Source of the DNA: a virus | Length of the DNA stretch: 22,500 bases | Direction: 5' to 3' (one strand) | Virus record (IMG/VR): IMGVR_UViG_3300037247_000247 | Location: 1-22,500 of that record | Shown here: piece after piece, positions 7,555-21,398 of the stretch | How positions within the stretch are numbered: position 1 is the first letter of the stretch | How the letters are laid out: each line of letters opens with the position of its first letter | Program-made: the position numbers and the translations under genes | The notes under the pieces: model-generated | The model's input: the letters and a program-made list of their open reading frames with translations, nothing else | Databases searched by the model: none | What the model was told of the DNA's origin: nothing

Positions 7555-7862
7555 TTTTTTTTTGGAATTGTAAAACATGCTTCAAAGCCGTGAACGTCAT
7601 TTGCTAATACCTCAGATACCACCCAATTCATTAATCGCAACGGGCATTTTGTTAAGTCCCATTCCTCATGCTTCCCCGTTAGTCCAGGCAGGTTGTAATT
7701 ATCACAAATGGTAATGGATACCGCGAAACGTTTAAGAACGCCTTTAGCGTCCTTGCTGGCTTCCATCGCTTCCAACCATGTTAGATAATGAGAGCCAAGC
7801 CACACATTAGGAATTTCTATATAGTAATCTTCGTTGTCTTCCAGTGGACAAGGTATTCTCAT
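7488..7862 (-). CDS. Tail assembly chaperone (G part)
   Basis: The unshifted product is 124 aa. It begins MRIPCPLEDNED, contains a central helical region (WLEAMEASKDAKGVLKRF), and ends 21 residues past the slippery lysines. I chose the ATG at 7862 because it overlaps the upstream stop as TAATG, the pattern used at most junctions here. A start at 7916 would add 18 Arg-rich residues that merely read the end of the previous gene in another frame. As in other siphophages, this short form and the frameshifted form probably act together on the tape measure during tail assembly. Confidence 0.8.
   Translation of the reverse strand: MRIPCPLEDNEDYYIEIPNVWLGSHYLTWLEAMEASKDAKGVLKRFAVSITICDNYNLPGLTGKHEEWDLTKCPLRLMNWVVSEVLANDVHGFEACFTIPKKKPLNTGALLNLMATVGASQKAA
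7554..7563 (-). other. Programmed -1 ribosomal frameshift site (A AAA AAG)
   Basis: On the minus strand nine A are followed by GCCC. In the upstream frame the codons are CCA AAA AAA AAG, so the in-frame heptamer A AAA AAG is present, the same slippery sequence used by E. coli dnaX. A -1 slip enters the second frame at GCC and reads on to the stop at 7246. Just downstream a near-repeat is seen (GCCCTTGAATACTG and GCTCTTGAATCTG), but no strong stimulatory hairpin is obvious. Confidence 0.85.
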
Positions 7863-8296
7863 TATGTAACGGTTCCCCATACGGCCGTAACGCCTTCGCC
7901 GCCAACGGCGTTCCATGCGTTCGTGACCGCGCTTCCAGTTGAAGGACTCACAAGGTAGTTTTGCAATAGCATGTTTGTCATCGTAAATTCTGGATCGCCA
8001 CTTGTGGGGGCTGCCCCAATACCAATTGCAACCACAATGGGAACAAGAGTACCTGCGTCTGCCAATGGTTGTACAACGGTGTGGCTTCCTAACGTATCGT
8101 TATCAAGAAATCCTGAGAAATCCAAAGTCACAGACCCAGTACCTTGCAAATTCTCCATAATGGTATTACAAAGCGTGGTGATGTCGGTTTGTTCATGAGT
8201 AAGCCCAACACCGCCAGAGCTTGTTATTGAACATGTTACTAATAAACTATTAATTGATATTGTTACAAATCTTGAATGGGTTTTACCTACCGCCAT
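7862..8296 (-). CDS. Tail tube-like protein, smaller paralogue
   Basis: The 144-aa product shares its whole plan with the preceding 256-aa protein. Both begin MAV and soon carry GKTH-x-R. Both then have an IMEN segment followed by a short strand ending in F, a VA-(I/F)-GI strand with a P and G nearby, and a late segment with AVTNAW or AVAISA running to V-W-G or VAGWG. It is therefore probably a tube-type protein formed by duplication. It could be a second tube subunit, a tube tip or initiator protein, or a decorating copy. It lies next to the chaperones, the usual site of the major tail protein. A TAGGAG stop/SD overlap precedes its ATG. Confidence 0.65.
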   Translation of the reverse strand: MAVGKTHSRFVTISINSLLVTCSITSSGGVGLTHEQTDITTLCNTIMENLQGTGSVTLDFSGFLDNDTLGSHTVVQPLADAGTLVPIVVAIGIGAAPTSGDPEFTMTNMLLQNYLVSPSTGSAVTNAWNAVGGEGVTAVWGTVT

Positions 8297-8306
8297 AATG
8301 TTTCTC

Positions 8307-9077
8307 CTAGAGTGGTATTTGTGCCAACCATAATATTAAATCTGTGCCAGCGTTTTTAACTAATGAAGCGCGGGTGTATCTATCAACCGATCCCGGGTCT
8401 GTTATAACTGCGCTTGTCACCGCAGAGCCAATATTTGTAGCCACGCCTAATGTCGCCGAAAATACGGAATCGGCAGGACTATCTTCCATCGTTAAATCCC
8501 AGTCATTTGTGCCCATTGCACCCGCGCTTTGTGCCACATGGTAAATCCACATGTAGCCCTTCGGAGCGGCGGCGCCATTATCTAAGCTGGGCAAATCAAT
8601 CGTTGCTGATTCACTTACCCCGATGGCTAGCATTTGCCCCCATCCAGCTACAGCGTTTTCGCCTGCGTTAAATGTCGCACTAATAGCAACCGCGTCAGAT
8701 GGTGTCATATTCGGTAGATATGTGAACTGTGTCAGGCTTGCCGAGAATGAAGGCGCACCAATGGTAGGTGGTTCGCTAATACCAAATGCTACAGTTCCAA
8801 ATAAGTCAGTTCCTATTGCATTTAATGCTGTGTGTGTGCCAGCGTTGACACCGGGAGCAGAAACTTTATTGTTAAACAATGCGGAGTAATCCCCAAAGTT
8901 AACGGTCGCCATCCCTGGGATATTTTCCATGATGTCAACCCATCCAGTCACATCGGCAGGATTGCCACCAAGTCCCACGGTTCCGAGCGACCTACTATCA
9001 CCGCTCAAGTTGTTGCCTTGGATTAAAAGTCGCGCATATCTGACATGTGTTTTGCCTGTTGTTACTGTTACGGCCAT
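8307..9077 (-). CDS. Major tail tube protein (probable)
   Basis: The 256-aa product is beta-rich and low in charge, as expected for a tube protein. It has GKTHVRYARLLI near the N terminus and DIMENIPGMATVNF at about residues 47-60. The C-terminal half has a distinct strand pattern (about 150-256) that its smaller neighbour lacks, possibly an added surface domain. It is preceded by an AAGGGA SD site. Its location between the tail completion protein and the chaperones supports the major tube role. Which of the two paralogues forms the bulk of the tube cannot be told from sequence. Confidence 0.65.
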   Translation of the reverse strand: MAVTVTTGKTHVRYARLLIQGNNLSGDSRSLGTVGLGGNPADVTGWVDIMENIPGMATVNFGDYSALFNNKVSAPGVNAGTHTALNAIGTDLFGTVAFGISEPPTIGAPSFSASLTQFTYLPNMTPSDAVAISATFNAGENAVAGWGQMLAIGVSESATIDLPSLDNGAAAPKGYMWIYHVAQSAGAMGTNDWDLTMEDSPADSVFSATLGVATNIGSAVTSAVITDPGSVDRYTRASLVKNAGTDLILWLAQIPL

Positions 9078-11650: not shown

Positions 11651-12123
11651 TATAACACCTCGATGTCAAAGCGAAGGCCATCAACGCCAGTGGTCAATGC
11701 TTTTGCCTTTAATGTGTTGGCGATTGTTGTAGCGTCAATCGTTCCTGATGTCAGGAATGTTCCGATTTGAGTTGCCCCGCCATCAATCACGATGGCATCG
11801 ATTGTGATTGCGCCTTCTGCGATAACGTTCAAACGATCACCACGAACTGGGGAAACATAACGAACCACATCACCCGCAACATATAACGCATCGATTGCAT
11901 CTGCTGTATTTGCATCGTCAAAGACTTTTTCAAGTGCAATATATAATTGATCCCACGGAACTGTGCCATCTGACGCGGTAGCTGTTGGGGGAGTCGTGGT
12001 GTGGTCAAGTGTTAACATATGACCCGCTGCGATTCCCGCGCCAGCCTGTGCTTCAGGAAATGATTGTGTGCCATTTCGATTGTGGCTAGAAAGGAATACA
12101 ATACTTGCTGCTGCCTTGGCCAT
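11650..12123 (-). CDS. Head decoration protein-like
   Basis: The 157-aa product is beta-rich, with many small residues (AGAGIAAGHMLTLD), and has V-R-Y-V and GDVV strands. It lies between scaffold and capsid, the standard place for lambda gpD or DUF2190-type decoration proteins. The C terminus is a series of short Thr- and Ala-rich strands. Both ends overlap neighbours as TAATG. Length is greater than classical gpD (about 110 aa), so DUF2190-like or a related stabilising protein is more likely. Confidence 0.6.
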   Translation of the reverse strand: MAKAAASIVFLSSHNRNGTQSFPEAQAGAGIAAGHMLTLDHTTTPPTATASDGTVPWDQLYIALEKVFDDANTADAIDALYVAGDVVRYVSPVRGDRLNVIAEGAITIDAIVIDGGATQIGTFLTSGTIDATTIANTLKAKALTTGVDGLRFDIEVL

Positions 12124-12470
12124 TAGTCCACCTCTACATATTTAACATTTTCATCAGTACTGATGAAAGCCGAGAAGCTGCCACCGTTGCCCGCGTAATT
12201 GGCGGGTTTGAAAGCGGCTTCTAATTTGCTCAAATCAGCAACGGACATTGCTTGCAAGCTATCAGCTTCCAATGTGCAACGTTCATTTGCTACGAGTCGC
12301 GCCACAATGGGGGCTTTCTCGCTGTTGGCTGAGTTGGTGATAACTTCGTCAACACGGCCGTTTACAGTTTCAATTGATGTCACAAGGTCTTTAATCAAAC
12401 CTTTTAACTCATCAATTTGAGCTGAGTTGTCAATAACAACAGGCTCTTGTTTTGGTTCTTTATCTGCCAT
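12123..12470 (-). CDS. Nested scaffold protein from an internal start
   Basis: An ATG at 12470 lies in the same frame as the protease and begins MADKEPKQEP. A strong AAGGAG SD site at 12480-12485 stands nine bases before it. The 115-aa product holds the coiled-coil segment and the C-terminal part of the protease protein, which is where a scaffold is expected. Phage lambda C/Nu3 uses the same arrangement of a scaffold nested in the protease gene. Separate synthesis is inferred from the start signal. Confidence 0.65.
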   Translation of the reverse strand: MADKEPKQEPVVIDNSAQIDELKGLIKDLVTSIETVNGRVDEVITNSANSEKAPIVARLVANERCTLEADSLQAMSVADLSKLEAAFKPANYAGNGGSFSAFISTDENVKYVEVD

Positions 12471-13103
12471 AGGTATGTTCTCCTTGTCTTGGCTAAAACC
12501 TAAATCTACTAATACCCTTTTGACAAGGGCTACAACTTTATTTTCTTGCGCTTCTTCTTCATTGCGAACTAATCCACACCCATCATCTACGCTACACGCG
12601 CCAGGTGTGTCTAGTAAGATTGCCAAATGATCATGGCGTATATTGTGTACAATTTCTGTGTATGCGTTCCCTAGAAAGTTTCCCGCTTGCGTTACCTTAT
12701 CGCTGAACCAACCAAGCGAAACCTCTAATACTTTCTTGCCTTTAATAGCGTTCAGTATTTCTAGCCCCTGAGTACCTGTTTGATTCAGCCGTTCAACCTC
12801 AAACCATGCTTCCGCTTTTAATGAATCCTCATCAATGTGGGCATTAAAAACTTTCCCGATGGTTTCAACATCTGGATTGTTTGCCGGAATGGCTTGCCCC
12901 TGATCGCCAGATGGATGATTGATTGTAATTGGACGGCCGTTTAATGATTCTACTGATTCTGCTAATTCGTCACGCTGTACGAGTCGCCCATTCATCACTG
13001 ATTCAATCGCAGCCACAACGGGAGCCACAAGCCACTGTTTGCCGTTCTTTGTAATTCGTTTAATGTCTACGGTATTGATTTCTAAACTATTCGTGTAGAT
13101 CAT
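12123..13103 (-). CDS. Prohead maturation protease (DUF2213-type) with C-terminal scaffold
   Basis: The 326-aa product has a protease half (about 1-180) followed by a scaffold-like half. Visible protease features are GRPITINHPSG with His63, the EVSLGW motif with Ser129 as candidate nucleophile, and NIRHDHLA with His159; these match the phage DUF2213 protease family. A Cys-rich CSVDDGCG follows. After residue 200 a coiled-coil stretch (IDELKGLIKDLV) begins the scaffold. I chose the ATG at 13103, which overlaps the upstream stop as ATGA. A GTG at 13169 extends the frame only through the end of the upstream gene. Two ACGGCCGT copies lie here. Confidence 0.8.
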   Translation of the reverse strand: MIYTNSLEINTVDIKRITKNGKQWLVAPVVAAIESVMNGRLVQRDELAESVESLNGRPITINHPSGDQGQAIPANNPDVETIGKVFNAHIDEDSLKAEAWFEVERLNQTGTQGLEILNAIKGKKVLEVSLGWFSDKVTQAGNFLGNAYTEIVHNIRHDHLAILLDTPGACSVDDGCGLVRNEEEAQENKVVALVKRVLVDLGFSQDKENIPMADKEPKQEPVVIDNSAQIDELKGLIKDLVTSIETVNGRVDEVITNSANSEKAPIVARLVANERCTLEADSLQAMSVADLSKLEAAFKPANYAGNGGSFSAFISTDENVKYVEVD

Positions 13104-13300
13104 ATGCTCATCCCAAGGTACATCAGTAAAGACACAAGTAACACAGTTCCCATGATAGTAATTAACCACCTGATTGAAAACATTGTGAATTCCCTATCCG
13201 TCATCCCCCCCCCCATTGAATTAGGGGAAGGTTTGGGTGGAGGCTCTCGATATTTAGTTTCCCGTACTGGTCTACTCTTGTCTGGTCTAACTAATTTCAT
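13100..13300 (-). CDS. Small single-pass membrane protein
   Basis: The 66-aa product has a basic, Pro-rich N-terminal half (PVRETKYREPPPKPSP) and one strongly hydrophobic segment near the C terminus (about residues 43-64, IRWLITIMGTVLL and on). I chose the ATG at 13300 because AGGAG stands before it, and the preceding peptide gene stops in that site. A longer frame from 13345 has no SD site. The stop overlaps the protease start as ATGA. A run of ten G inside the gene (coded as GGG between two Met codons) is slippage-prone. Function is unknown; a membrane protein between a terminator and the protease is unusual. Confidence 0.65.
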   Translation of the reverse strand: MKLVRPDKSRPVRETKYREPPPKPSPNSMGGGMTDREFTMFSIRWLITIMGTVLLVSLLMYLGMSI

Positions 13301-13394: not shown

Positions 13395-13435
13395 AAAAAC
13401 AAAAAATCCGCACCTCCAATTAAGGAAGCGCGGAT
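13395..13435 (-). terminator. Intrinsic terminator after tRNA-Trp
   Basis: On the minus strand ATCCGC (pairing 13406-13411 with 13430-13435), an internal mismatch, then TCC/GGA with a six-base loop form a hairpin. It is followed by TTTTTTGTTTTT. This is a textbook terminator ending the tRNA transcript. The SD site of the lysine-rich peptide comes directly after the T-run, so downstream genes must be reached by read-through or antitermination unless a distant promoter exists. Confidence 0.85.
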
Positions 13436-13466
13436 CAAATGATGCGGGCTAGAAATATGTGTTTAG

Positions 13467-13539
13467 CAGCGAATATAGGATTCGAACCTACAACCTACGG
13501 GTTTGGAAGCCGTTGCTCTTCCATTTGAGCTAATTCGCT
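13467..13539 (-). tRNA. trnW: tRNA-Trp (anticodon CCA)
   Basis: The acceptor stem is seven perfect pairs (13533-13539 with 13468-13474). A four-pair D stem (GCTC/GAGC), an anticodon loop TTCCAAA with anticodon CCA, a five-base variable loop, and a T loop TTCGAAT with a five-pair stem (one G-T) complete the cloverleaf. The discriminator base is G, as in bacterial tRNA-Trp. The anticodon stem has one C-C mismatch next to the loop, which is odd. The 3' CCA is not encoded. It lies at the end of a short transcript ended by a terminator. Confidence 0.85.
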
Positions 13540-13540
13540 C

Positions 13541-13680
13541 TTACATATGCACCTATCGGTAGCCTGTGGCTCCCCCAGTGTGCATATTGCCGATGATGGG
13601 CGTTCGCATCCCATACCATCCCCTCGACTTTTCACGATTCCGCTAATTTTTGAGGGTCGCACTACTACAGTGCTACATCG
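13541..13680 (-). ncRNA. Candidate structured RNA upstream of tRNA-Trp
   Basis: This stretch has no credible gene but several nested inverted repeats. ATATGCAC (13545-13552) pairs with GTGCATAT (13580-13587) around an AGCC-tgt-GGCT hairpin (13561-13571). ATCGG (13555-13559) can pair with CCGAT (13590-13594), giving a pseudoknot with the first stem. GATGATGGG (13592-13600) pairs with CCCAT-ac-CATC (13610-13620), a nine-pair stem with a two-base bulge. CCCTC (13621-13625) pairs with GAGGG (13652-13656), and GCACT pairs with AGTGC (13659-13673). Pairings are seen in the sequence; function as RNA is inferred. The alternative is a transcribed leader processed off the tRNA. Confidence 0.45.
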
Positions 13681-13689
13681 TACATATTT

Positions 13690-13718
13690 ATCTTAGTCTA
13701 TATTAGGCTCTTTTGCAA
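13690..13718 (-). promoter_or_regulatory. Candidate promoter for leader and tRNA-Trp
   Basis: On the minus strand TTGCAA (13713-13718) and TAAGAT (13690-13695) are spaced by 17 bp, a fair match to a sigma70 promoter. It overlaps the end of the preceding gene and would start a transcript at about 13683. That transcript would contain the structured leader, the tRNA and the terminator. Confidence 0.4.
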
Positions 13719-13890
13719 GTTCTTCTACCGTATGCACCTGCACCGCCCTGATAGCTCGTGTCAATGCTTCATTACCCATTGCTGCGTTTTGATTCAATGC
13801 GCGATTGCATACCTCATTCAGTTTGATGATGGTTGCACGTTGTACTTGCTTCGGTGGCGTGTATAGGTATGTTGGTTTAGGCTCAGTCAT
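13693..13890 (-). CDS. Hypothetical protein
   Basis: The 65-aa product has an N-terminal Pro- and Tyr-rich stretch (PTYLYTPPK) and then two likely helices, one with ATIIKLNEVCNRAL and one with AIRAVQVHTVEELAK. It has no membrane segment and no motif I recognise. A GAGG SD site lies just before the ATG, and the ATG directly abuts the upstream TGA. It is the last gene before the tRNA region. Confidence 0.6.
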   Translation of the reverse strand: MTEPKPTYLYTPPKQVQRATIIKLNEVCNRALNQNAAMGNEALTRAIRAVQVHTVEELAKEPNID

Positions 13891-14100
13891 TCATTTCCTC
13901 AATTTCTCTAATTTCTCTACCAATCCCTCTACATGGTCAAGGTGCTTTTCGACAATTCCCCTGTAGTTAGCAAGCTCGCGCCCTATTTCGTACATGCTGG
14001 TTTCGCGCCCAAATAGCTCCCCCGTTTTTCCATCCTTAACCGCATCGAGTACTGCAAGTGCTATTGTAACATCTAGGGGAATTGGAAAAAGTCTTGACAT
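13891..14100 (-). CDS. Hypothetical helical protein
   Basis: The 69-aa product is helical with a heptad-like C-terminal half (IVEKHLDHVEGLVEKLEKLRK), suggesting a short coiled coil. Its start overlaps the upstream gene by 28 bases, with GGGG about eight bases before the ATG. It belongs to the run of small unknown genes between the fibre-like gene and the tRNA. No function is assigned. Confidence 0.6.
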   Translation of the reverse strand: MSRLFPIPLDVTIALAVLDAVKDGKTGELFGRETSMYEIGRELANYRGIVEKHLDHVEGLVEKLEKLRK

Positions 14101-14348
14101 TTGGAGTGCCCCTTTTTGATCTTCTCAATCATCCATTCTCTGATAATCCGAGCATTACTATTGATAAAAATCTTAACACGATCAAGCCTCGTTTGGGGGC
14201 GCAGGGCTAACGTATGATCATCAATAAGTTCTTTAACCATATATGTGTTGCCGCCAACTGCATAGCTTCCATCGTCTTGCTTGTAAACAATATCACCCGC
14301 ACCTACGCCACTTCCTGGGAAGTAAACGTCTGTAATAATCTTATCCAT
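14073..14348 (-). CDS. Hypothetical small beta protein
   Basis: The 91-aa product begins MDKIITDVYFPGSGVGAGD and has a beta-rich first half with GSYAVGGNTYMVKEL, then a basic C-terminal half (REWMIEKIKKGH). I chose the ATG at 14348 with an AGAGG SD site; it overlaps the upstream stop by eight bases (ATGGATAA). A longer frame from 14402 would lie entirely inside the upstream gene. The first half resembles a small SH3-like or KOW-like fold (a G-D-I-V strand), but this is weak. Confidence 0.6.
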   Translation of the reverse strand: MDKIITDVYFPGSGVGAGDIVYKQDDGSYAVGGNTYMVKELIDDHTLALRPQTRLDRVKIFINSNARIIREWMIEKIKKGHSKCQDFFQFP

Positions 14349-14682
14349 TGCTAGCCCTCTTGACCGCGTTCTGAGCCATCCCTGATAACATCTGCTGTAC
14401 AAGTGGCTTTATCACTTCGTGACTTGATAACATCTCGCCACATACCTTTACAATATAATCATCAACATTGGCGTTGATGGTTGCCCATGTGATAGGACAC
14501 AATTGTAACACGTCATCCTCACTCTTTAGAGTGTACCTCATCTTGAAATATACCTTTGTAGGATCATGCGGAAGCCCTGCATTCTTATACTGTGATTTGC
14601 TGGATACGGCCGTTACGGAATCAAGATTGTATTCTTTTTTGATGCTGTTACATAGTTCTCTAAGTCGTTTAGCTTTGCTCAT
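14341..14682 (-). CDS. Hypothetical protein
   Basis: The 113-aa product starts MSKAKRLRELCNSIKKEYN. Its middle carries VYFKMRYTLKSEDDVLQLCPITW, followed by a helical region (DDYIVKVCGEML) and a basic C terminus. The ATG at 14682 overlaps the upstream stop as ATGA. An alternative ATG eight codons earlier lies inside the upstream gene. One ACGGCCGT lies in it, coding Thr-Ala-Val. I do not recognise a family. Confidence 0.6.
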   Translation of the reverse strand: MSKAKRLRELCNSIKKEYNLDSVTAVSSKSQYKNAGLPHDPTKVYFKMRYTLKSEDDVLQLCPITWATINANVDDYIVKVCGEMLSSHEVIKPLVQQMLSGMAQNAVKRASNG

Positions 14683-14888
14683 AGTTTGCCCAATCCCCAT
14701 TCCCACAATCTTTTTGCTAATTTTATTAGCTGCTCTGTTTTTGTCATAGCGCGAACTGTGATAGTTGAGTCATCCAGCACGTTTGTTATGACGAACTTAT
14801 ATCCAATCTCGTCGCCTGACTTAACTCCATCGGTAAACCACGCATCCGTATCAACGATTTGATTTGTTGCTTCCCATTTCTCGCTCAT
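14679..14888 (-). CDS. Hypothetical small protein
   Basis: The 69-aa product has a beta-like first half with a GDEIGYKFVITNVLDD segment and a helical C-terminal tail (KTEQLIKLAKRLWEWGL). The DEIGYKFVITNV part recalls the GDIVYKQ strand of the gene at 14073-14348, so the two may be distant relatives. Both ends overlap neighbours as ATGA. Function unknown. Confidence 0.55.
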   Translation of the reverse strand: MSEKWEATNQIVDTDAWFTDGVKSGDEIGYKFVITNVLDDSTITVRAMTKTEQLIKLAKRLWEWGLGKL

Positions 14889-15175
14889 AGTTTATCCCAC
14901 ACCCTTAACAATAAAACACCCTCGGTCTTTGTCCATTCACCATTGGCGTAATAAGATTGAAACCCAACACGACCACCGTTATCCGTATATTTCCATGCGC
15001 CAGCCATCCACACACGATTGCCTTTCTTATCGCGCCTAATCTTTGCATCGGCGGGGGTGTCTTCTTCCATGCCATCATACGCGCCACATTGGAAATCAGT
15101 GTCATCGTAAAGGCCATCATAAGGATATATGACCCCTTCAACTTCAATCTCAAATAGTCGCTCTGCTTTGCTCAT
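14885..15175 (-). CDS. Hypothetical acidic protein
   Basis: The 96-aa product starts MSKAERLFEIEVEGVIYPYD and is rich in Asp and Tyr. It contains a KGNRVWMAGAWKYTDNGGRVGF stretch with many aromatic residues and ends in a strand with VLLLRVWDKL. The start overlaps the fibre-like gene's stop as TAATG. The first 20 bases match those of the gene starting at 14682 at 17 positions. Its job is unknown; it could be a small virion or fibre-assembly protein. Confidence 0.55.
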   Translation of the reverse strand: MSKAERLFEIEVEGVIYPYDGLYDDTDFQCGAYDGMEEDTPADAKIRRDKKGNRVWMAGAWKYTDNGGRVGFQSYYANGEWTKTEGVLLLRVWDKL

Positions 15176-16293
15176 TATGAAATACCTAACCTATCCGCAT
15201 TGAAAACAACATTCTCGATATCCACATTTGCCGTCCCTGTATTTAGATAGACATACAACTCAAGCACATCAGAGTCGGTAATTATCTGCTCGGCTAATGC
15301 GGCGACCGTGGTGCTACCTGAACTTATAGATGCTTGTGAAGCGTCTATCCTAGTGAATATGCCAGAGGCTACCCCGTTAATATAAAACTCTAAAAACACA
15401 ACGACATTTGCAGATATATTGGAGAGCGTTAAATTTCCCGCGAATTGATAGAACCCACTTAATGTAATATTTTCGGGAGCAAACGAAGCTCTGAAAGAGC
15501 CAACAACGGCCGTGTTTGTTACCGTCATATTCCTAGAAAATGGCGTGTTATTGTATCCCTCTAATGGGACGGGTGATGTCGTCAATGCCTGTGTATGGAT
15601 AGGGCTATCTGTCCTTGATTGTGCCAAGGCGATGGGGTCTTGCACATCCTGTGGACCCACAATAATCATTCCCTCTAGGGGATCATCCACAATCACAATA
15701 CCAACGGCAATCACAATTGAAGGCGGAATATTAACCAAATCCCCCGCCGTGATAGCGCTTAAAAATAAAACATCACCCGCAGAGAATGAGGAAGTATCTT
15801 GACCTCCCACATTCCCCAGCCTTGTGATGTATCCCGTTTCTCCATCTGGTATGTCATGGGTTGCCACGCCTGTTACGATGGCATTGTTTACCGTGTTGGC
15901 TTGTGCTAATACAATCGTTGGCAATCCGGAAGCGGAGCCCTCGGTTCTACATGCTTTCCCATCTGGTATTATTGCCCCGCTATTATTGAGAACTCTGATC
16001 ACTAGCTCTTGTGCAATGTTGATTGTTACATCAGACTCTTCATTGAAATAGCTAAGTGCTTTTTTGTCATTGTCATAGAACAATAATGCTTCATCGTGCG
16101 CGGGGTTAACTGTGTTCGTGAATTTTATTGGATTCGTCGTTTCGTTTCCTAGGTCGGTTGTTTGTTGCAGTGTTCCACGTACATCATCAACACGCACTCG
16201 ATTCGATGAGTTTGGGGATACCCGCTCGATCTCTAATTCATCATCATCTTGCGCGGGTGTGCCATCGTTTAAGTCACTTATCTTTTTCGCCAT
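15175..16293 (-). CDS. Fibre-like virion protein
   Basis: The 372-aa product begins MAKKISDLNDGT, a typical N terminus of phage fibre and spike proteins, followed by acidic ERVSPNSSNRVRVDD. Residues about 95-220 hold repeated Ala- and Val-rich beta strands. The C-terminal part (about 255-372) resembles a jelly-roll receptor-binding domain, with SGFYQFAGNLTLSNIS and VFLEFYINGVASG. It lies inside the head module rather than at the tail end. With the preceding collagen-like fusion, a fibre attached to the head or portal vertex is possible. That is inference; it may also be a tail fibre gene moved here. Confidence 0.55.
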   Translation of the reverse strand: MAKKISDLNDGTPAQDDDELEIERVSPNSSNRVRVDDVRGTLQQTTDLGNETTNPIKFTNTVNPAHDEALLFYDNDKKALSYFNEESDVTINIAQELVIRVLNNSGAIIPDGKACRTEGSASGLPTIVLAQANTVNNAIVTGVATHDIPDGETGYITRLGNVGGQDTSSFSAGDVLFLSAITAGDLVNIPPSIVIAVGIVIVDDPLEGMIIVGPQDVQDPIALAQSRTDSPIHTQALTTSPVPLEGYNNTPFSRNMTVTNTAVVGSFRASFAPENITLSGFYQFAGNLTLSNISANVVVFLEFYINGVASGIFTRIDASQASISSGSTTVAALAEQIITDSDVLELYVYLNTGTANVDIENVVFNADRLGIS

Positions 16294-17861
16294 TAACTTG
16301 TAACTCCTAATACTGTTGTGCGCAAATCACCCGCTACATCAATTCTATCTTCGCCATTGACAGTGACACGCTGCAGGATTGGTAAAAGTGGATCGGTTCC
16401 AGTGACCAGTTTGCCTATTGGGATAACGGCCACCACACCCGACGTGGTTTCGGGTAACACAATCCCATACATTTGTATGGATGGAAAGTATACACCAATA
16501 TGACTAATCTCATCTCCATCATCGTCATACACGGTAACGATTGGGAATTTTGGCATCTCGGTAATCACCATGTCAATCGTATTCTCATATGGGAGATTAG
16601 CAACCCGATCACCGCCGCCTGTGCCACGTGCCCCAAGTAGCGGTCGTTTCGTGGACATTGGCCATTTGATGCGTTGCTCTGTTCCATCGGTGAACTTAAT
16701 CACCAACTCATTAGTGACTTGGTTAAACTTGATAGAACGAATGCCTCTCCCGTCGCTACCATCGTCACCTTGCTCCCCTTGCTTGCCATCGTCCCCAGTC
16801 GCACCCGTTGCGCCGCGCTCCCCTTCATTCCCAATTAATCCTTGGATGCCATCTAACCCATTACGGCCGTTAATGGCTGGCTCTTTAATGATACGTATAG
16901 CACCAGATTTGCCTTTCATGCCCCGCAATCCAACCTTACCGCGCTCACCTTGAGTGCCTTGCTTCCCTTGCTCACCTTTGTTAATCCGAAATTCAGGGAT
17001 AGTAATAATGGGGGTCTTGGTTTGCTTTTGCCAACCGTTGGCAATAAGCAACGGCTCCAAGGATTCGATGGTTAACTCTTGTTCGTTAAATATAGGTTGA
17101 CGTACACGAACAAGTACCCAGCGACATCGGCAACGGGGATGAACCGGAATAATTCCACCTGTCGCATCGACGGGGAACACGCCCTCACCTAACCCAAATC
17201 TATCCGTTGTTTCTAGTGTTTCACATAAGATACAAACATCGTCATCGCCAGCGGTTGTGAATTTCTCAGCCTCTACACCGACAGTCACCGCCCCTATTGA
17301 TTTGGCGACGGCCGTAATTCCCATACTAATGCCACCAATGACACGAACGGCAACCGATGTTATTGATCGCGTGATTGCAATCTTATTAATCCGATCAATG
17401 ATAGCTTGTGTTTGTGCGGGCACTGTATCAGGTCGCAGAAAACCAATCGCACCGACTACACCCACAACCTTGCTAATATCACGCCTCTCATCTGGCGTGT
17501 CAATCAATACCTGTGTTGACTTTGATGATGCTTGTGTGGCCACCTCATCTCGAATATTACGCAGGTCATTTAATGCTTCAGTGTGTATCTCATCAATAAG
17601 TGTGTTACGTTCTGATGGTGCAAGTGCAACCACCTCCCCCAAGTCACGGCTCGAAAGTGATTCTGACTTCGCCACCGTTTCTCGAATAAAGGGCAACATC
17701 CAATCCCCATTGTTACCAATAACAAAACGTTCAACCAATGCGTTAACATTGGCATTCACATCACGCTTGATTTCCGCAATGACTCGTTTCCACCGCTTTG
17801 TGTATTCACGTCCCCAGCGATTGCGTAGGGTGATTGATCCTGTGGGGTCGGTGCTAGCCAT
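16293..17861 (-). CDS. Mu gpF-like minor head protein fused to collagen-like repeat
   Basis: The 522-aa product has three parts. Residues 1-270 form a phage Mu gpF / SPP1 gp7-type head morphogenesis domain, ending in the family's Cys/His motif, visible as CILCETLE (about 208-215) and then GGIIPVHPRCRCRW (about 240-253). Residues about 294-322 and 335-372 are Gly-X-Y triplets (such as GEQGKQGTQGERGK) rich in Glu, Lys, Asp and Arg, so collagen-like. Residues about 375-522 are a beta-rich C-terminal domain starting with RSIKFNQ. This minor protein usually acts at the portal vertex in head assembly. Fusion to a collagen-like stem and a C-terminal domain is unusual. The start is a TAATG overlap. 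Confidence 0.75.
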   Translation of the reverse strand: MASTDPTGSITLRNRWGREYTKRWKRVIAEIKRDVNANVNALVERFVIGNNGDWMLPFIRETVAKSESLSSRDLGEVVALAPSERNTLIDEIHTEALNDLRNIRDEVATQASSKSTQVLIDTPDERRDISKVVGVVGAIGFLRPDTVPAQTQAIIDRINKIAITRSITSVAVRVIGGISMGITAVAKSIGAVTVGVEAEKFTTAGDDDVCILCETLETTDRFGLGEGVFPVDATGGIIPVHPRCRCRWVLVRVRQPIFNEQELTIESLEPLLIANGWQKQTKTPIITIPEFRINKGEQGKQGTQGERGKVGLRGMKGKSGAIRIIKEPAINGRNGLDGIQGLIGNEGERGATGATGDDGKQGEQGDDGSDGRGIRSIKFNQVTNELVIKFTDGTEQRIKWPMSTKRPLLGARGTGGGDRVANLPYENTIDMVITEMPKFPIVTVYDDDGDEISHIGVYFPSIQMYGIVLPETTSGVVAVIPIGKLVTGTDPLLPILQRVTVNGEDRIDVAGDLRTTVLGVTS

Positions 17862-19631: not shown

Positions 19632-21058
19632 CGTCTTAATCCTTTCTTGCGTCCAAATGTTCCGGCTCTTTTGCCACTGTTGAATCTATTAAATGCACCA
19701 CTTGCCGCATCTACGCCATCGCGTGGCTTTGCTGGAAACCTGCAAAACATATCTACTAATTGTCGATTCCATGAAGCGTGCAATAGTTTAACATTAAATG
19801 CCCCCGCTTGACTAGCCAGAGGTTCTGCCCGCGTTACCTTATCACCTGTTACCTTATCAGGAAATGAAGCAAACCCCGCTAATGTAACACGCGTTGTGTT
19901 CTGTGCTGATTCCTTTCCGCCGCTTCCAGGCTCTTGCTCATGACCTGTTACCACATGGCCATATAATTGATTATCAGATACGGCCGTATTGCGTATGATG
20001 CGTTCGCGTTCTGGTGCTTCCCATTGTCCAATGATTAAATCAATAATGTAATAAGTATCATTGGCTTTTACCATCAACAAACCCGCCGTATAATCACCTG
20101 CCCCTTTAGTCCCTGCCTTATCCCAATATCTTACGTATTGACCCCCACTAGGAACGGATGTCACCACCTCAAACATTCCACGGGTAAACATTCCACCCTC
20201 TCGCGTTGTGGGTTGCTGTTGATATAGTGCCCCGAAAAAGTAATCACCTAGCTTTCCCTTGATCTTGTTCAACTTATCAATTGTATATCGTGAGGGGTTA
20301 AGTGCTTCCCCTAAATTCCTTGTATCTTGTTCGATGGTGCAAGTGCTTGGGTATTCTGGCAACTCTTCTTTGATTGCTTCATAGTGCAAAATGTGCCAAT
20401 GTTCTGGCGACTCTTCCTCGATGTCAAGCAACCACCCAGAAAGATCGTTAACATCCCACCGCGTTTGGATAATGATAATTGCTTCGTTTGGCTCTGCTCT
20501 TGTATAGAATGTGGACATGTACCAATCAGTATTTCTATCCTGAATAACAATAGACTTTGCTTCTTCTGCATTCTTTACGGGGTCATCAATAATCCCTAAG
20601 TGGAAACCCTTCCCCGTGATTGGGCCACCTACGCCAGCCGCCCATAAACCACCACCGCTTGTTGTTTCCCAATGCTTTACCGCCGCGGCATCATCTTTTA
20701 ATTGCCCACCAATACGGGTGAAATTATCACGGGAGTTTCTTGACAATGTATATGCTAAATCAGCAGCGTATGAATTGATGCCAACAAAGCGGGCGGGATG
20801 CCTGTATAAATAATACGCGCTAAACATGCGTGATATGGTTTCGGACTTGCCATGTCGAGGTGGCATGAATACCATCAGCCGATTGATCTTGTCGTCTGCG
20901 ACATCTTGCAAATTATTGATAAGTGATTTTAAGTATTGGGGGGTTGAGTCAAAACGTGGATTTACAATCTTTATATAGTCGGCAAAGGATAATACGGCCG
21001 TTTTATTGGGTGAGGTAAACCATGTATCTAGTTTAGGAATCGTTATCGTTGGGTACAT
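19628..21058 (-). CDS. terL: Terminase large subunit
   Basis: The 476-aa product has an N-terminal ATPase with a Walker A motif at residues 66-72 (PPRHGKS) and a Walker B motif near 153-159 (HLGIIDD). A C-terminal RNase H-like nuclease follows, with RYWDKAGTKGAGDYTAG as its first acidic motif (about residues 305-321) and later conserved Glu/Asp residues near EQEPGSGGKES. It drives DNA into the head and cuts it. The gene overlaps the small subunit by 26 bases and the portal as ATGA. Length is typical for the Terminase_6 type. Two ACGGCCGT copies lie here, both coding Thr-Ala-Val. Confidence 0.92.
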   Translation of the reverse strand: MYPTITIPKLDTWFTSPNKTAVLSFADYIKIVNPRFDSTPQYLKSLINNLQDVADDKINRLMVFMPPRHGKSETISRMFSAYYLYRHPARFVGINSYAADLAYTLSRNSRDNFTRIGGQLKDDAAAVKHWETTSGGGLWAAGVGGPITGKGFHLGIIDDPVKNAEEAKSIVIQDRNTDWYMSTFYTRAEPNEAIIIIQTRWDVNDLSGWLLDIEEESPEHWHILHYEAIKEELPEYPSTCTIEQDTRNLGEALNPSRYTIDKLNKIKGKLGDYFFGALYQQQPTTREGGMFTRGMFEVVTSVPSGGQYVRYWDKAGTKGAGDYTAGLLMVKANDTYYIIDLIIGQWEAPERERIIRNTAVSDNQLYGHVVTGHEQEPGSGGKESAQNTTRVTLAGFASFPDKVTGDKVTRAEPLASQAGAFNVKLLHASWNRQLVDMFCRFPAKPRDGVDAASGAFNRFNSGKRAGTFGRKKGLRR

Positions 21059-21398
21059 TGCTGCTCATTGCTTCTAATAGTCTAACTGATTTATCAGTCA
21101 CCACGCCATGAAGTACAGCGACCCCCGCAGCGTCTTGCTTGTTTAACCACGCCTCAGTTTGAAAGAATTTTGATTGTATCTCCAATGTCACCAAGTTAGT
21201 ATGGAGTAGTTTAATAAGTAGTTCTCCAATCTCTTCCTGCTTTTTTTGTATCCCGCTTTTTGGGACACCATCACGGTTCTTCCAGTTTGATATTGTTCCT
21301 GGGGGTATGTCGTATTCACGCGCCACACTGTTAATTGATTGCCCCTGCAACAACGCGGCCATTACTGCGGCTTTTACTTCTGGTGAATATTTACTCAT
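21033..21398 (-). CDS. terS: Terminase small subunit
   Basis: The 121-aa product starts with a helix-turn-helix (about residues 9-45) carrying the segments SINSVAREYDIPPGTISNWK and DGVPKSG. This is the DNA-binding domain that recognises the packaging site. A helical oligomerisation region follows (EEIGELLIKLLHTNLVTLE). It directly precedes the large subunit. The SD site is weak (TGTAGG). Most of the packaging signal may lie in or near this gene, but I see no obvious repeat there. Confidence 0.8.
   Translation of the reverse strand: MSKYSPEVKAAVMAALLQGQSINSVAREYDIPPGTISNWKNRDGVPKSGIQKKQEEIGELLIKLLHTNLVTLEIQSKFFQTEAWLNKQDAAGVAVLHGVVTDKSVRLLEAMSSNVPNDNDS

Follow-up and report, generated by a model that had tools for sequence, protein, structure and literature searches.

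A lone tRNA-Trp gene with its own terminator, probably a moron-like cargo insert in the head operon of a tailed phage

What occupies the one long gap in an otherwise tightly packed viral genome? The window, by which we mean the whole 22.5-kb stretch of the viral record that was analysed, carries nearly all of its genes on the minus strand, and from TerS down to position 714 adjacent genes overlap or lie no more than 40 nt apart. The single exception is a 307-nt gap between a possible 25-aa ORF and the ORF at 13693, a spacer that is anomalously long for so packed a genome and that houses a tRNA and a terminator. Our analyses indicate that the lone tRNA-Trp and its own terminator are likely a moron-like cargo insert in the head operon of an uncultivated tailed phage.

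On the minus strand TerS is followed by TerL, the portal, a MuF protein with a collagen-like region, a 372-aa ORFan, small ORFans and the tRNA insert. After the insert come a small membrane-type ORF, the protease, a 157-aa gene in the decoration-protein position, the major capsid protein (MCP), the tail genes and a possible spanin. The following features frame the insert.

21033-21398, minus strand: TerS, assigned by position and by similarity adjoining TerL in relatives
13693-16293, minus strand: variable cargo upstream of the tRNA, running from MuF to the tRNA and made up of seven ORFans, six of them small and one of 372 aa
13308-13385, minus strand: possible 25-aa ORF, extremely basic (MTKHRPKKKPKKKVVKRPKKTTPNR), with an SD-like AGGTG, heading the protease/capsid gene block
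12123-13169, minus strand: head maturation protease, the first conserved gene downstream of the tRNA (PHROG 760, 12864, 530 and 2229; syntenic in relatives)

No match was returned by a Pfam scan of all seven upstream ORFans or by a PHROG scan of those at 13693, 13891 and 15175. The possible 25-aa ORF has a coding score of -0.24, which gives no support for coding. In the MuF/head-morphogenesis position, the protein encoded at 16293-17861 (minus strand) carries a fused region of collagen-like G-x-y repeats (Pfam Collagen, E = 3e-10), and its PHROG head-morphogenesis matches are weak.

Two elements of the gap were readily confirmed.

13467-13539 (13466-13539 according to ARAGORN), minus strand: tRNA-Trp gene, anticodon CCA, found by ARAGORN and Rfam RF00005
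13405-13436, minus strand: intrinsic terminator stem-loop with a 13-bp stem and a 6-nt loop, followed by the T-run TTTTGTTTTT (13404-13395)

The original prediction had placed a full tRNA-Trp and a strong terminator here, and both were borne out. The tRNA was called by ARAGORN and scored 63.7 bits against RF00005, well above threshold, and the tRNA-Trp(CCA) gene is real and ordinary. A pair check gave A1-U72 and G73, which we take to fit bacterial tryptophan identity. Pairing is complete in the acceptor, D and T stems, the sole unpaired position being a C31-C39 mismatch in the anticodon stem, and the CCA tail is not encoded. Directly after the tRNA, the GC-rich hairpin at 13436-13405 and its U-run rank top among the terminator-like sites of the window, with a fold of -22.9 kcal/mol and a z of -7.53.

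The mismatch raises the question of whether the gene is a decaying tRNA (a pseudogene) with relic flanks. C31 occurred in 0/34 fetched viral tRNA-Trp genes when both positions were left free in the search, an alternative fold of the anticodon arm beats the cloverleaf by 1.2 kcal/mol in silico, and the CCA is unencoded; the mismatch and the competing fold may count against the cargo reading as well, since a tRNA with these predicted features could be decaying. However, the three other stems are intact, the Rfam score is high, an encoded CCA is absent from many tRNA genes, and a mismatched C39 is also found in the phage tRNA-Trp genes of L119 and L129 (A31-C39, 2/34). We therefore regard decay as very unlikely. 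Other phage tRNA-Trp genes (L101, L107, L120 and L126) resemble this one in being tRNA-Trp(CCA) genes on a viral contig whose fetched stretch holds no other tRNA, an arrangement seen in many viral contigs. The present gene differs from them in lying within the head operon, with its own terminator, the unusual C31-C39 and an unencoded CCA. A pattern of the exact tRNA arm searched against one genome per bacterial and archaeal species gave no match.

The cargo reading draws on the tRNA, called by two methods, on the strong terminator directly after it, on the 307-nt gap, on the single tRNA-Trp genes of other viral contigs and on a comparison with related loci. Single-protein scans with the protease, MCP and portal found no close relative of the phage, and TerL and portal alignments yielded distant relatives only (portal identity at most 39%). 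The portal relatives were drawn from IMG/VR and GTDB genomes, plus named phages. The order TerL-portal-MuF-[variable]-protease-MCP is broadly common to Hardycor1, MaInes, Pocitis76 and HJTV-4, and relatives of the head maturation protease are located after portal/MuF in other phages. None of the 86 related loci that have both genes carries a tRNA between portal and protease. The portal-to-protease distance in these 86 loci ranges from 1.3 to 10.9 kb (median 2.8, window 6.5), about an eightfold variation, and the interval holds an opposite-strand endonuclease gene in MaInes and a CxxC protein in Hardycor1. In these sequences the portal-protease interval is a variable site.

Two further observations were made among the relatives. 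One distant relative carries another tRNA within the packaging operon, a tRNA-Met between TerL and portal (L035:2405-2482), which favours the cargo reading. In another locus (L014:3997-7074) the TerL relative lies in three collinear pieces, corresponding to query residues 23-154, 153-221 and 241-459 and separated by gaps of about 1.1 and 0.7 kb. The gaps look like two insertions, intron- or homing-endonuclease-like; Rfam gave no intron match.

A promoter of its own would also be expected of a moron in the strict definition, and the original prediction had proposed a promoter-like pair of boxes ahead of the leader.

13690-13718, minus strand: promoter-like boxes TTGCAA-17 nt-TAAGAT, matching 8/12 consensus bases; weak and unproven

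The letters are indeed there, overlapping the end and the stop codon of the upstream ORF, but they carry no significance: sites at the 8/12 level number 515 on the minus strand of the window (about 2.3 per 100 bases), and the pair misses the cut-off of our promoter scanner (9/12 matches). The boxes are at chance level and are evidence neither for nor against a promoter.

The locus was then compared with published descriptions of morons (PMC1524935 and PMC2629481). That the insertion separates genes which are neighbours in related phages is indicated by the absence of tRNAs in the 86 loci, the variable interval and the shared gene order, and the insert has its own terminator. Its G+C content (0.43-0.51, against 0.446 for the window) reveals no shift in base composition, a feature that is typical of morons and not strictly required, so a recent foreign origin of the insert is not shown. 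With the composition unshifted and the promoter boxes at background frequency, we call the insert moron-like, not a proven moron; the absence of a convincing promoter is an argument against the cargo reading. Like the morons of lambdoid and P22-like late operons (P22 ant), it places extra material and a terminator between adjacent or near-adjacent late genes. It differs from them in carrying a tRNA instead of a protein gene, in its unconvincing promoter and in its unshifted G+C content.

Under the preferred reading, a tRNA-Trp(CCA) gene with its own terminator would have been inserted into the variable MuF-protease interval of the late operon. Its RNA would be supplied either by run-in transcription from the upstream head genes or by a weak local promoter. 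Host RNase P would trim the 5' leader and host 3' nucleases the tail, the host CCA-adding enzyme would complete the tRNA, and the completed tRNA would supplement tryptophan decoding. The 153-nt leader would be a non-coding spacer with one ordinary hairpin, and the terminator would limit transcription into the capsid genes. That the gene was inserted as cargo, and how it is expressed, processed and used, is what we infer. As it stands, the locus represents one more phage tRNA.

The remaining part of the gap, upstream of the tRNA, is where something more unusual had been proposed.

13540-13692, minus strand: spacer or leader on the 5' side of the tRNA, non-coding as judged by coding score
13543-13590, minus strand: leader hairpin immediately 5' of the tRNA, with a ATATGCAC/GTGCATAT stem and an inner AGCC/GGCT stem
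13555-13594, minus strand: proposed second stem of the pseudoknot (13594-13590 with 13559-13555), attributed to chance

That no protein gene explains the segment, as originally noted, agrees with the codon scores. The ORFs crossing 13540-13692 score like non-coding frames (-0.21 to -0.26 log2 odds per codon, compared with -0.25 for wrong frames and +0.20 for real genes), and coding in the leader was rejected on this basis.

The leader folds at -48.6 kcal/mol with a z of -2.75 (200 shuffles), and it ranks second by z among 224 windows of the strand, a noisy ranking with 20 shuffles each. Most of this is attributable to the hairpin next to the tRNA: the stretch 13541-13590 folds at -20.9 kcal/mol (z -3.67), only 1/200 shuffles was as good, and the stem pair probabilities of the hairpin are 0.66-0.99. 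The remaining local hairpins have z values of -0.2 to -2.0. According to these folding models, the leader is somewhat more folded than chance, mainly via the 13543-13590 hairpin, which is the only predicted structure of the leader that is clearly better than chance. This excess folding is left unexplained if the leader is a plain spacer, and in that respect it weighs against the cargo reading.

Homologues of the leader were sought by several methods. Nothing significant was found by blastn of the leader alone against phages, against plasmids or against all fetched loci, or by a leader 18-mer search in IMG/VR, while blastn of the whole segment against phages gave matches confined to the tRNA part. 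A single-sequence covariance model of the leader retrieved only itself, the best other hit among the 113 other loci having E = 6.4; the search sets comprised 80 sources (the window plus head-module or TerL relatives) and 35 (the window plus tRNA-Trp contigs). In Rfam, searched up to E = 10, the tRNA was the sole family matched and nothing was reported for the leader. An 18-nt stretch of L067 that matched the leader is part of a 227-aa ORF, and the match was taken as chance.

Interleaving stems in the leader had been put forward as predicting a pseudoknot, together with the proposal of a novel structured phage RNA whose functional H-type pseudoknot would control tRNA processing. The arms are present exactly as described, 8 bp and 5 bp in length, and they interleave to form the strongest H-type pseudoknot of the leader by stacking energy; the better-than-chance fold of the leader as a whole also fits such an RNA. 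The knot itself, though, is not above chance. Its energy of -22.5 compares with a shuffle mean of -22.4, and an H-type pseudoknot of equal or greater strength is present in 42% of dinucleotide-preserving shuffles. The nested ensemble gives the 5-bp stem a pairing probability of 0.0 and the 8-bp stem one of 0.66-0.99, values to be read with the caveat that a nested model cannot hold a knot. Both arms of the 5-bp stem are claimed by nested helices: the 5' one doubles as a side of a hairpin in 13586-13622, and the 3' one belongs to the inner stem of the hairpin at 13543-13590. Forming the knot would therefore break up parts of these two hairpins. Chance-level strength and the cost to competing hairpins leave the pseudoknot unsupported, and with no homologue in the searches above, an RNA of this kind seems highly improbable. 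The broader suggestion of a new phage non-coding RNA or a leader controlling tRNA processing likewise found no support: the knot and the promoter are at chance level, and the leader has neither an Rfam family nor a homologue.

Known structured RNAs associated with phage tRNAs fit no better. GOLLD and ROOL are large phage-associated RNAs linked to tRNA clusters. The leader resembles them as a non-coding RNA near a phage tRNA gene, but they are much larger and neither was matched in Rfam. Theta-type (HDV-like) ribozymes have a nested double pseudoknot with a catalytic strand. A self-cleaving RNA of this type would share with the leader a folded structure and interleaved stems, and theta ribozymes do occur beside phage tRNAs (PMC10879173). 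In tRNA-associated theta ribozymes, however, the cleavage site is no more than 5 nt from the 3' end of the tRNA (PMC10879173), whereas the leader is on the wrong side of the tRNA, at its 5' end, and the 3' flank enters the terminator. The last two arms are joined by a 2-nt link with no space for a catalytic strand, a scan of both strands with an HDV-like descriptor found none, and the Rfam search up to E = 10 gave no ribozyme match. We assign this explanation next to no probability.

On the other side of the tRNA, the layout has consequences for the genes that follow. About 10 nt separate the end of the T-run from the ATG of the possible 25-aa ORF and, because of this, no promoter fits between them. 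Expression of the capsid genes would then depend on read-through, on processed RNA or on a promoter internal to the insert; a promoter farther downstream, inside the small ORFs, may also serve the protease and capsid genes. A strong terminator within a head operon, with no promoter space before the next possible gene, is a layout worth keeping in mind. For the P22 ant moron, an effect on the read-through of late transcription into the tailspike gene has been described (PMC2629481), and by analogy the consequence of the layout here may be comparable.

One possibility is that the insert acts as a valve on the capsid operon, at the level of transcription or of RNA processing. The terminator and the excised tRNA (through RNase P and 3' nucleases) would part the upstream head genes from the protease and MCP genes, and the structured leader would modulate read-through, as a cis-acting antitermination RNA, or shield the new RNA ends. 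The missing promoter space, the better-than-chance fold of the leader and the P22 precedent point in this direction. Against it, the leader matches no Rfam family and no homologue, trans-acting antiterminators can carry phage late operons past terminators and would make a leader function unneeded, and a promoter farther downstream, inside the small ORFs, may serve the same genes. We therefore consider a valve unlikely. It is quite improbable that the 153-nt leader represents a new phage RNA acting in cis, with whose help late transcription would get through, or survive, the roadblock that the tRNA and the terminator form just ahead of the capsid genes; such an RNA would most plausibly be a read-through/antitermination or end-protecting element. 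If the structured leader did permit read-through at the terminator, it would rank as an antitermination RNA of a phage. Real novelty at this locus could arise only in this way.

Elsewhere in the window, two neighbouring tail-region genes (7862-8296 and 8307-9077, minus strand) encode paralogous proteins with 34% identity over 148 aa, and the pair is a tandem duplication. Between convergent genes, at 598-634, there is a near-perfect hairpin (AAACGGCCGTAC...GTACGGCCGTTTT), which is probably a bidirectional terminator closing the late operon; its region has the lowest fold z in the window (20 shuffles per window).
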